From the NCBI GenBank assembly GCA_024401915.1, contig JAKSKA010000019.1, forward strand, positions 1-13,468: a stretch of 13,468 nucleotides of DNA, written 5' to 3'. A program made the translations under genes and the position numbers. The notes beneath the pieces were generated by a model that made no database searches, was not told where the DNA came from, and saw only the letters and a program-made list of their open reading frames with translations. The DNA comes from Bacteroidales bacterium (GTDB taxonomy: Bacteria > Bacteroidota > Bacteroidia > Bacteroidales > UBA932). Numbering within the stretch: position 1 is the first letter of the stretch; each line of letters opens with the position of its first letter. This document shows positions 1,771-12,641 of the stretch, one piece after another.

Positions 1771-1911
1771 AAAAAAATAAGTTGGTAAAGATTTGTGCAA
1801 GATTGTTCTAGGATTTTGGATGCGGAATGAAGGAGCGTAGCGGGCTACGCGACCGAATGACGCATTCAAAAGACGGAACAAGATGCATAAAGATTACCAA
1901 GTTATTTTTTT
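1771..1911 (+). repeat. 141-nt imperfect palindrome with six tandem G.A mismatches; probable structured RNA and/or murB terminator
   Basis: Arms run from A7-TAA at 1771-1780 to TTA-T7 at 1902-1911, with the tip GCGTAGC-GG-GCTACGC at 1835-1850. Nearly the whole element pairs with itself. The interruptions are not random: at six places a GA on the 5' arm faces a GA on the 3' arm, giving tandem G.A/A.G pairs (1790-91/1892-93, 1801-02/1882-83, 1812-13/1872-73, 1825-26/1859-60, 1829-30/1855-56, 1833-34/1851-52). Such pairs stack well in RNA of this strand, whereas the other strand would have U.C mismatches, so the plus strand is the likelier RNA. The T7 tail and A7 start make it a plausible, possibly two-way, intrinsic terminator for murB. 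It may be a dispersed element, which cannot be judged from one copy. Confidence 0.8.
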
Positions 1912-1933: not shown

Positions 1934-3241
1934 ATGAGTTCATTTGTGATAGAAGGAGGCCGCAAGCTCAGCGGCACCATTACGCCACAGGGTGCGAAAA
2001 ACGAAGCGCTCCAGATTCTGAGCGCCGTCCTGCTGACAGCCGATACCGTCCGTGTCAAGAATCTCCCCGAGATACTTGACGTCTGCAATCTCATCTCGCT
2101 GCTCGAGAATATGGGCGTCGGAGTGGTGCGCCACGCAAAGGGCGACTACAGCTTCTGCGCCGCGGAGATCAACCGCGAGTTCATCGGAAGCGACGATTTC
2201 GTGAAACGCTGCGCCTCCCTGAGAGGTTCCGTGATGATAGCCGGTCCTCTGCTCACCAGGTTCGGAGAGGCTTTCTTCCCGAAGCCGGGAGGAGACAAGA
2301 TAGGCCGCCGCAGGGTCGATACCCACATCGAGGGCTTCGTGAACCTCGGCGCCGACTGCGAGTACGACAGTGAAAAGAAAGCATACCACCTCAGGGCTCT
2401 CGGTGGCCTCACAGGCCGCTTTATGCTGCTTGACGAGGCGTCCGTGACTGGTACGGCCAACATCATAATGGCAGCCTGCCTTGCCGACGGGGCCACCACC
2501 ATCTACAACGCCGCCTGCGAGCCCTATATCCAGCAGCTTTGTTCTATGCTTGTGAATATGGGCGCACGCATCGACGGCATAGGGTCCAACCTCCTGACCA
2601 TCCACGGCGTCTGCTCGCTTCACGGCACGGACCACACCATCCTGCCGGATATGATCGAGGTCGGCTCGTTCATCGGAATGGCCGCCATCACGCGCAGCGA
2701 ACTGACGATCAAGAACGTGTCCAACCGCAACCTGGGCATCATCCCCGAGGCGTTCAGGCGCCTTGGCGTGCATCTCGAGCAGAAAGGTGACGATATCTAT
2801 ATCCCCGCCCAGGAGAGCTATGAAATCGAATCGTTCATCGACGGTTCCATAATGACGATAGCGGACGCACCCTGGCCGGGCCTGACACCTGACCTCCTCT
2901 CCGTCCTGCTCGTGGTCGCCACCCAGTGCAAGGGCAGCGTGCTCATCCATCAGAAGATGTTCGAAAGCAGGCTCTTCTTCGTGGACAAGCTGATAGATAT
3001 GGGTGCACAGATTATCCTCTGCGACCCCCACCGCGCCGTCGTCATCGGCCACGACCACCATCACGAGCTGAAAGCCGGAAGGATGACGTCTCCCGACATA
3101 CGCGCCGGCATCGCTATGCTGCTTGCCGCGATGAGCGCGAAGGGCACTTCGACGATAGACAACATTGAACAGATAGACCGTGGCTACGAAGACATAGAGA
3201 GCCGTCTCAATGCACTCGGAGCCAATATTACCCGCAAATGA
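1934..3241 (+). CDS. murA: UDP-N-acetylglucosamine 1-carboxyvinyltransferase MurA, Cys-to-Asp active-site form
   Basis: Transfers enolpyruvate from PEP to UDP-GlcNAc, the first committed step of peptidoglycan synthesis. The 435 residues cover the two-domain EPSP synthase fold without truncation. Lys22 and Asn23 in QGAKNE are the conserved substrate-binding pair. The mobile active-site loop reads PGGDKIGRRRVDTHIEGF, starting at 118: Asp121 sits where E. coli has Cys115. Asp at this position is the known natural form in, for example, Mycobacterium tuberculosis and Chlamydia, and prevents covalent attack by fosfomycin, so low fosfomycin sensitivity of this enzyme is inferred. Further conserved segments include LPDMIEVGSFIGMAA and the C-terminal DNIEQIDRGYEDI. 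The ATG follows a perfect -7 word by 6 nt. Its TGA overlaps the next gene's ATG (ATGA, 3238-3241), suggesting translational coupling. Confidence 0.97.
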   Translation: MSSFVIEGGRKLSGTITPQGAKNEALQILSAVLLTADTVRVKNLPEILDVCNLISLLENMGVGVVRHAKGDYSFCAAEINREFIGSDDFVKRCASLRGSVMIAGPLLTRFGEAFFPKPGGDKIGRRRVDTHIEGFVNLGADCEYDSEKKAYHLRALGGLTGRFMLLDEASVTGTANIIMAACLADGATTIYNAACEPYIQQLCSMLVNMGARIDGIGSNLLTIHGVCSLHGTDHTILPDMIEVGSFIGMAAITRSELTIKNVSNRNLGIIPEAFRRLGVHLEQKGDDIYIPAQESYEIESFIDGSIMTIADAPWPGLTPDLLSVLLVVATQCKGSVLIHQKMFESRLFFVDKLIDMGAQIILCDPHRAVVIGHDHHHELKAGRMTSPDIRAGIAMLLAAMSAKGTSTIDNIEQIDRGYEDIESRLNALGANITRK

Positions 3242-11041: not shown

Positions 11042-12595
11042 CTAGAACCGCAATTGCAACGTCAGGGCGTCATCCGGGACAGGGGTGTGGTCCGTCCCGT
11101 AGTAATTGTAATAAGCACTGTCCAGGAAATCAAATATCATCGCCTTGGTATCGTCCAGGCTCATTCCGAGAACCATTGTAGCGATTACGCTTATGGACGC
11201 TTTTGCTCCGCCGGCAGCCAGCTCATAACTCAGTCCGGGATTGCTTTCCATCAGTTTCCGGGCCATTCCGTCAATGACATAATCCAGGATGCCGTCGACA
11301 GCCGCCTTCGCTTCTTCGGAATTCTTGTCGGGATCGAACAGATGTTCGTTACCGTTGCTTGTGAAACAGGTGAAATTGTAGAAGGGGACCTTGAACCTCG
11401 AACTGATGACGTCCTCCACCTCCTCAAGGCTTTTCAGCCCAAGCATCCCGGTGATGAGGGAATTTGCGGTCTCGTTTTCCCAACACACCTTTGCGGCTTC
11501 CTGCATATAGTATTCCGAGAGGTCGAGCCAGCATTTCCTGCCTTCTTCCCTGAGATCGACACCGCTGGACGGCGTCAGATCCTGGACGTCTCCGGACTGT
11601 ATCGTCATACGTCCTTCTTTCGATATTTCACCGGTGCGATATGCCAGCGGAAGATTGACCAGGGAACTCGTGACGACGCTGAAGATTTCCTGTCCGCCGT
11701 GTTTCTCGGACGTGATGGAATTCATATGTGAATGACCGCTGAACACCACGTCGATCCCGGCGTCGCAGAGGTCTGCCACCAGCTGCCCGTTGGTGTAGTC
11801 GTCGTAGTTCGTGTTGGCGATGTCGTCGCCCCTTATCAATGATGCGTTATTATAGAATCCGAGCAGGTTGTGGTGCATTCCCATAATGACATAGCGCCTG
11901 TCTTTATGCGCCTTTTCAACCATTTCGGCCACCCAGGATACCTGGTCTGTCGTAAGTCCGCCCTGTACCGCCAGTTTCTTCGAAGTGTTCTTTTCATTTG
12001 AATCCAGCCCGATGAAGGCGATGCCGTCGGCCGGATAGCTCATATAGTCAAGTTCCTTCGGGCCGCGTGCAACGGCATCATCATATCCGCACCGGGCGTA
12101 TATCTCCTCGAAATCCGCTTCGGAGACGCTTGGCTCGGGGGTCGATACGTCTCCGTCATATCTGAAGGAACGGGGGTTGGCGATATCGTGATTTCCGGGG
12201 GTCACAAGGATTTTCGCCCCGGTGCGTTTCGAGAACTCTTCAAGCTTTCCGGCGACATATCTGTGGGAAACGAGTTCTCCGTCCTTGGTCATATCGCCGC
12301 ATACGACCAGGAAGTCCGGGTTGTACGCCTGTGCCTTTTCGAGCGCGGCCGCAAATATTTCGGGACTCTCGCGCAGCAGTTTGCACTCCTCCCTGTTGTA
12401 TTTGTCGAAGGCCTCACCTTCACTGACAAGCAGGTCAGGATGCATCAGATGGATGTCGGAAAGAACGACGAACTTCTTGGGGTCGCCCTCAAAAGCCCGT
12501 TTGTAGCCCGTATTCCCTTTGTCCTTCGAGCAGGAACCCGAAAGCCCCGCTATGAGAACCGCTATGGCCAGCGGCAGAAGTTTCCAGTTGTTCAT
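11042..12595 (-). CDS. calcineurin-like metallophosphoesterase lipoprotein
   Basis: Two-metal phosphoesterase of the calcineurin-like superfamily; substrate unknown. The 517 residues start with a lipoprotein signal (MNNWKLLPLAIAVLIAG, then LSGSC with Cys22), so it acts in the envelope; the SKDK after the Cys resembles charged lipoprotein-export signals of Bacteroidota. All metal motifs are present: Asp47 and His49 (LSDIH), Asp101 (CGDMTKDG), Asn135-His136 (PGNHD), His241/His242 (GMHHN), His288 and His290 (SGHSH). Residues from about 300 to 517 form a C-terminal region I do not recognise. The frame is open 66 codons further upstream to 12793, but the signal peptide begins at 12595, which decides the start. 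There is no Shine-Dalgarno sequence. It lies 64 nt upstream of the GH3 gene on the same strand; co-function is only inferred. Confidence 0.93.
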   Translation of the reverse strand: MNNWKLLPLAIAVLIAGLSGSCSKDKGNTGYKRAFEGDPKKFVVLSDIHLMHPDLLVSEGEAFDKYNREECKLLRESPEIFAAALEKAQAYNPDFLVVCGDMTKDGELVSHRYVAGKLEEFSKRTGAKILVTPGNHDIANPRSFRYDGDVSTPEPSVSEADFEEIYARCGYDDAVARGPKELDYMSYPADGIAFIGLDSNEKNTSKKLAVQGGLTTDQVSWVAEMVEKAHKDRRYVIMGMHHNLLGFYNNASLIRGDDIANTNYDDYTNGQLVADLCDAGIDVVFSGHSHMNSITSEKHGGQEIFSVVTSSLVNLPLAYRTGEISKEGRMTIQSGDVQDLTPSSGVDLREEGRKCWLDLSEYYMQEAAKVCWENETANSLITGMLGLKSLEEVEDVISSRFKVPFYNFTCFTSNGNEHLFDPDKNSEEAKAAVDGILDYVIDGMARKLMESNPGLSYELAAGGAKASISVIATMVLGMSLDDTKAMIFDFLDSAYYNYYGTDHTPVPDDALTLQLRF

Positions 12596-12641
12596 ATATC
12601 GGCGAAGGTACTCAAAATAATTGAAAGTTACGCCAAACGCC

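Follow-up and report, generated by a model that had tools for sequence, protein, structure and literature searches.

The DNA analysed here, referred to as the window, is a 13,468-nucleotide stretch from a Bacteroidales bacterium. Our interest is in the gap between murB (positions 686 to 1741) and murA (1934 to 3241), which are both encoded on the forward strand. The protein products score above cut-off against TIGR00179 and TIGR01072, respectively. Genes after murA have profile matches to aspartokinase/homoserine dehydrogenase, a dapB-like protein (which misses its cut-off by 4.5 bits), dapA, and diaminopimelate dehydrogenase. Further along, a phosphoesterase open reading frame (11042 to 12640) was compared with NCBIfam NF053862, ‘anti-phage phosphoesterase’, and scores 51 bits where the cut-off is 420. 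Since this is far under the cut-off, the name should not pass to the open reading frame. The gap upstream of murA is largely filled by a 157 bp element, on the forward strand, at positions 1763 to 1919. It has a GC content of 38%, compared to 58% for the window, and no listed open reading frame inside. The first base of the murA start codon is 14 nucleotides past the end of the element.

The forward strand of positions 1771 to 1911 forms one long hairpin. The arms open with seven A and close with seven T; the outer arms (1770 to 1788 and 1894 to 1912) are 19 nucleotides long and 95% complementary. For positions 1761 to 1921, the predicted folding energy is -65.9 kcal/mol, compared to -27.4 kcal/mol for shuffled sequences (z = -12.6), and none of 200 shuffles equals it. 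The first-pass annotation described this palindrome as being interrupted by six steps at which GA faces GA, and each was found where expected. Step one (1790 to 1791, facing 1892 to 1893), step two (1801 to 1802, facing 1882 to 1883), and step three (1812 to 1813, facing 1872 to 1873) are in the outer part of the hairpin. Unpaired A residues were also proposed near these three steps. Those at 1800 and 1810 are present, while the first is at 1789 instead of 1787. The other steps (1825/1859, 1829/1855, and 1833/1851) make an apical triple step. This reads GA-AT-GA-AG-GA on the 5' side (1825 to 1834) and GA-CC-GA-AT-GA on the 3' side (1851 to 1860), with the apical stem-loop GCGTAGC-GG-GCTACGC (1835 to 1850) between. 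Note that the energy minimum has a shifted register at the last two steps; relatives keep the register with three GA/GA steps.

Alignment to full-length copies in other genomes moves the boundaries originally given for this unit, 1771 and 1911, outwards to 1763 and 1919. The copies belong to one family, called F1, and begin GGAATG and end AATGAC. They share the sharp ends GGAATGATG...GAATGAC (the pair can also be given as GGAATGATGAAAAAATAAG/GAATGAC), for which 1763 and 1919 are the equivalents in the window. The outermost seven nucleotides of the window element (GGAATGG/TAATGAC) pair only partially. In most aligned relatives, tandem G.A pairs also occur at the very ends (GGAATGA.../...GAATGAC). 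On either side of the window element is the triplet TAT (1760 to 1762 and 1920 to 1922), as expected for a 3-bp target duplication. The right TAT also provides the first bases of TATATTTG (1920 to 1927), a possible -7 promoter box.

Copies of the element were sought in 250 genomes of a related genus, the one to which G001, with the closest murA (L001), belongs. Homologues are present in 10 of the 250. In nine the match is full or near full length, with 69-86% identity, and in the other (G616) only the ends match. Two genomes have many full-length copies (16 in G610 and 6 in G579) that are identical within each genome, save for one copy in G610. Hence, in these relatives, the element is dispersed and multi-copy, as is expected of miniature inverted-repeat transposable elements (MITEs). 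Identical 3-bp duplications flank 41 of the 49 F1 sites collected; the remaining eight have no matching duplication. A second family, F2, has the ends GAAGTTGTTTTGAAA...TTTCAAAACAACTTC (terminal sequences GAAGTTG/CAACTTC), a related interior, and identical 3-bp duplications at 8 of 12 full sites, with no match at the other four. The 53 matched duplications, from F1, F2, and short F2 forms, comprise 30 TTA, 20 TAA, and one each of TAT, CTA, and TGA; in this tally some of the short F2 forms, being palindromic, are counted in both orientations. The TAT of the window is thus a departure from the usual TTA or TAA.

The copies also differ in how they are built. At two loci (L218 and L266) F1 copies are nested between F2 ends. 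Of the 49 F1 sites, 13 measure less than 110 bp. Several of the short copies (L262, L274, and L257 among them) have, by eye, the sequence GGTAAAGATTACC, which is what a deletion from one AAAGATT direct repeat to the other would leave; these repeats make up GA step one. At five further loci (L284, L285, L286, L288, and L291), the right end alone remains near gene starts, as TTTTTTAAGAATGACT[AT]A or a variant of it. In three of the five, judged by eye, an ATG follows within 15 nucleotides.

The junction between murB and murA was checked at 11 murA loci. In six genomes (G428, G617, G579, G596, G651, and G725) murB overlaps murA, or is separated from it by no more than about 30 nucleotides, and the element is elsewhere in the genome. 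At the other five loci murB is not directly upstream. Similarly, at L003 to L006, the gap is a few to about 30 nucleotides and is without the element. One locus of Cryptobacteroides avicola (L002) has an insertion before murA with inverted CTGATAAAAA-like ends, which by eye is unlike the window element. The first-pass annotation had inferred a plus-strand RNA rod placed between murB and murA. Because the element is transposed, multi-copy, and missing from the same junction in relatives, an RNA specific to this locus is not supported. We conclude from these comparisons that the palindrome is the body of a transposed MITE-like repeat, one copy of a short mobile element of Bacteroidales. Our main reading, to which we assign a probability of about 0.8, is that a non-autonomous palindromic MITE-like element inserted between murB and murA with a 3-bp target duplication. 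Comparison between genomes shows dispersal as a unit, fixed ends, duplications of the TTA/TAA type, an empty junction in relatives, and a conserved fold specific to one strand.

Judged on sequence, F1 is MITE-like in size (157 bp and non-coding, where MITEs span 50-1000 bp), in its terminal inverted repeats, in its target duplications, and, in relatives, in copy number. Draft genomes often lack transposons and transposase genes. Among single-end matches in such drafts, no larger or autonomous element with F1 or F2 ends was found. In a search limited to one transposase family, PF01609, five of eight genomes have one match each. None of these five loci, one of which is partly masked and one at a contig end, has the ends of the element. 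The closest known MITEs are BrickBuilt, MITE464/PgRS, and MITE239 of Porphyromonas gingivalis (PMC4596501, PMC10969869). As described in the relevant passages, these and other prokaryotic MITEs are likewise short, non-coding, dispersed, and intergenic, with about 10-20 copies, terminal inverted repeats, and target duplications in some copies (PMC4596501, PMC10969869). The ends given for P. gingivalis differ, being GAGACC... (IS5-like) or ACGTGAG... (PMC4596501, PMC10969869). Furthermore, the accounts of P. gingivalis MITEs given there (PMC4596501, PMC10969869) do not describe a rod with GA steps, whereas F1 is nearly all one hairpin with a covarying interior.

Do the GA steps matter, or are they incidental? 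To address this, inner cores of F1, F2, and the window element were set side by side, 25 distinct ones in all; these were kept from 28, with L286, L313, and L322 dropped by eye as non-elements. The script used chooses a 1-bp or 2-bp spacer according to best pairing. At the three apical steps, both arms read GA in 24, 24, and 23 of the 25 cores. Beside them, a five-base stem has 14 different 5' sequences among the 25 cores, and yet pairs fully (with G-U allowed) in 21, and at four of five positions in the other cores. Between the first and second apical steps, the spacer is AT/AT in one group of cores and A/T in another, so one pair has been lost on both arms together. Outside the 25-core count, the third apical step reads GC/AA in place of GA/GA at four related loci, L341, L351, and L354 (G755) and L343 (G735).

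Covariation was measured in two alignments. The first, A4, has 13 rows and 34 pairs and holds only elements with the 2-bp spacer. Overall, 91.0% of cells pair, and 11 of the 34 pairs have changed on both sides, a number reached by 19 of 500 shuffles. The covariation score is 0.252 (reached by none of 500 shuffles), compared to 0.031-0.078 if partners are slid by one to three columns. Further pair types are not in excess (20, against a shuffle mean of 22.1, with 458 of 500 shuffles reaching the observed value). The second alignment, A3, has the eight rows of the full-length clade. Nine pairs have changed on both sides, and the score is 0.105, compared to 0.020-0.050 for slid partners. The doubly changed pairs are in the two inner helices and none is in the outer helix. 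Consistent with this, 0 of 21 pairs in the outermost helix changed on both sides and 15 never vary, so covariation provides no support there. A further alignment, A2, with 16 of the 18 distinct full-length rows, was excluded from the counting of pairs, since MAFFT puts the two types of spacer out of register. In the first-pass annotation, stems that covary around invariant GA/GA steps were named as support for a structured RNA; at the tip, in both the 25 cores and A4, this is what we see.

The outer steps are looser. Counted by eye in A3, both arms are GA in six of eight rows for step one, eight of eight for step two, and three of eight for step three. The first three steps had been noted for an exact 11-nucleotide spacing, and by eye this recurs in one relative (G579). 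Since the third step drifts, the related suggestion that the trio lies on one face of the helix is weakened. We conclude from the alignments that the apical triple step is largely conserved, and that the face-aligned trio with 11-nucleotide spacing is not a conserved feature.

A sceptical explanation is that the GA/GA steps are a mere by-product, either of nested insertions that left direct repeats behind or of a preference of the folding program. The steps do occur within direct repeats such as AAAGATT (which includes step one) and GAATGA, and several short copies look, by eye, like AAAGATT-to-AAAGATT deletions. Against this, the apical steps persist across diverged families while adjacent stems change. 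In addition, GA/GA accounts for 70 of the 82 2x2 loops in minimum-energy folds of 21 distinct elements, compared to 6 of 178 in folds of flanking DNA made with the same program. We consider the by-product explanation improbable.

The fold is also specific to one strand. In all 21 distinct elements the plus strand folds better than the minus strand, whether with RNA parameters (means of -53.7 and -33.2) or DNA parameters (means of -28.2 and -20.2). Compensatory changes in the interior, together with purine mismatches fixed on one strand only, point to selection on the folded strand. The hairpin and its apical GA steps have been kept while the paired arms changed; hence, the single strand, in its folded form, seems to be important in its own right. 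To this extent, the structured plus-strand rod of the first-pass annotation is borne out, but nothing marks the folded strand as RNA over single-stranded DNA. On the sequence patterns described, we regard DNA and RNA as about equally likely to be the selected form.

Single-stranded DNA is the substrate in some known systems. REP/RAYT and integron attC systems both depend on one strand that folds and bears the signal. Here too, one folding strand carries the signal, and GGAG precedes the hairpin at the tip. The element might then be a REP/BIME-type repeat, with a RAYT of the HUH class as its transposase, or resemble attC in being recombined while single-stranded and folded. REPs share the palindromic and dispersed nature of F1 but, according to the portions of the literature consulted, are 21-65 nucleotides long, and most subclasses carry a GT[AG]G foot (PMC6006769, PMC3733652). 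F1 has a length of 157 bp, no GT[AG]G foot, and a 3-bp target duplication. Matches to PF01797 were weak in six of nine genomes and absent from three (G011, G014, and G005); note that the genomes richest in F1 are outside this set of nine. No fold with at least two GA/GA loops was found near the eight PF01797 loci examined. Integron attC sites have RYYYAAC/GTTRRRY ends, and these are missing from the ends of our element, as read from the sequence. We therefore think a REP/RAYT or attC-like origin unlikely, though somewhat less so than the by-product explanation. A separate locus (L168, G006:C1, positions about 309336 to 309590) has a 342 amino acid open reading frame resembling a Y1 transposase, and around it are several similar long repeats, of another kind, that form hairpins. 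Judged by eye, this may be a RAYT together with the repeats that belong to it.

Where copies are found bears on the RNA alternative. The right end of F1 is within 25 nucleotides of a start codon, in the sense orientation, at 19 of 49 sites; the left end shows the mirrored arrangement at three of these sites (two-sided p = 0.0009). Only main-frame open reading frames were accepted in this count, and the background at random flank positions is 11.6%. Since F1 copies tend to be in the sense orientation just before start codons, transcription of many of them, as 5' leaders, is to be expected. Upstream promoter motifs were also considered. The -7 consensus of Bacteroides is TAnnTTTG. This occurs 3-15 nucleotides upstream of the F1 left end at 5 of 49 sites, compared to 1 of 49 in the mirrored position; the expectation of 0.12 derives from mostly coding flanks, so the contrast is overstated.

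These positions are what would be expected if the element were a structured regulatory RNA, that is, a 5' leader rod bound by protein, spread by transposition, and retained for its effect on the gene. The inner stems that covary while GA steps are held fit the same explanation. Two results count against it. First, the start codon bias does not differ significantly between unique copies (11 sense and 0 mirrored) and identical, recent copies (8 and 3; Fisher p = 0.21), so retention for function is not established. Second, at 22 F2 sites, the start codon bias is absent (8 sense and 6 mirrored, with a looser start rule and a background of 15%) and the TAnnTTTG box is on neither side. A regulatory RNA is possible, but we would not favour it.

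Alternatively, the hairpin would be a plain bidirectional transcription terminator, with an A-run, a stem, and a T-run. The seven A and seven T at the limits of the arms would suit this role, and some F1 copies are at or beside the stop codon of the upstream gene (e.g. L216, L224, L244, L260, and L262). However, a simple consensus scan of positions 1700 to 1960, which allows only loops of 3-8 nucleotides, finds no terminator-like site, the T-run is itself paired, and the stem next to it is AU-rich. Moreover, copies precede start codons more often than expected, and the element transposes as a unit. In agreement with the first-pass annotation, which had argued against a plain terminator, we consider this the least likely of the explanations discussed.

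The element resembles no RNA family or repeat that we could match. The first-pass annotation had recognised no family and, indeed, the window has no Rfam match at gathering score; the best match under threshold is MIR5998, a microRNA, at 30.6 bits with a cut-off of 180. A full-text search of the open PMC literature similarly found no described element or RNA family that matches. Among palindromic candidate structured RNAs of Bacteroidetes, one survey describes HMP2_4205 (132 bp) and HMP2_1032 (106 bp) as predicted terminators (PMC8040213). Like F1, these are long palindromes found mostly or entirely in Bacteroidetes; unlike for F1, transposition is not mentioned in the main text (PMC8040213). 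Our comparison is by description. The candidate RNAs of that survey may include relatives of F1 (PMC8040213).

Several searches addressed how widely the element is spread. Direct BLAST with the palindrome, in ten genomes chosen by murA similarity, gave only background, and there was no match in plasmids. Phages gave two short matches, and through one of them, in MT839353.1, a related core was reached. Of the patterns built from the core, one had no matches, and another matched three IMG/VR contigs, none with a long rod and one, by eye, coding-like. A core pattern had no match in 393 genomes of the order, and an inner pattern and three end patterns had none in IMG/VR. A covariance model made from A4 has matches in 10 of 119 genomes of the family. 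Three of these (L346, L348, and L349) have no GA rod on folding and are probably false; four loci (L340, L344, L352, and L353) were viewed on the opposite strand. The model also matches L176, in MT839353.1, with an E value of 6.8e-7 in 78 kb. Here, at about 1100 to 1320, there is a very stable hairpin (-114 kcal/mol for 240 nucleotides) with the same apical GA core. The record is a human gut contig, deposited as ‘Bacteriophage sp.’, but its U32 peptidase, MYG1, and FeoA genes make it look like bacterial chromosome.

Hairpins of similar build occur in Alistipes. The examples at L052 (3246 to 3365 and 3444 to 3571) are 110-130 nucleotides long, with purine-rich internal loops like those of F1. 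L052 and its relatives have 34 matches in G011 and 25 in G014, including fragments and the query's own place, and none in G012 or G013. By eye, these hairpins share conserved blocks, and their middle and outer stems are complementary with sequences particular to each copy; they differ from F1 in that some copies have Watson-Crick pairs replacing a GA/GA step. Since the A4-derived model (R1) misses them, kinship with F1 is unproven. Elsewhere, at about position 1500 of L091 (G010), there are two near-identical small tandem hairpins with a GAAGGAGCGTAGCGG-like loop.

Returning to the reading of the element as a non-autonomous MITE-like repeat, a mechanism can be outlined. A transposase, supplied in trans by an element not found here, would move F1. 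Tandem G.A pairs would let one strand form a stable rod, while the duplex DNA stays an imperfect palindrome. The folded strand itself would then be what is recognised, whether as single-stranded DNA while the element moves or as RNA once a copy is transcribed in a 5' leader. In its fullest form, this proposes that a rod with tandem sheared G.A pairs at its tip, and in most aligned relatives at its very ends too, is the substrate for an unknown recombinase and, after insertion before start codons, is also transcribed as a mobile 5' leader. We offer this combination tentatively, and hold it possible rather than probable. MITEs are usually viewed as terminal repeats around filler. In F1 the interior is what changes in a compensatory manner and what keeps its purine mismatches. 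The family is hence a test case for whether bacterial transposition, or control by 5' leaders, can depend on tandem G.A pairs, and the covariance model can now be used to seek such elements in other Bacteroidales genomes.
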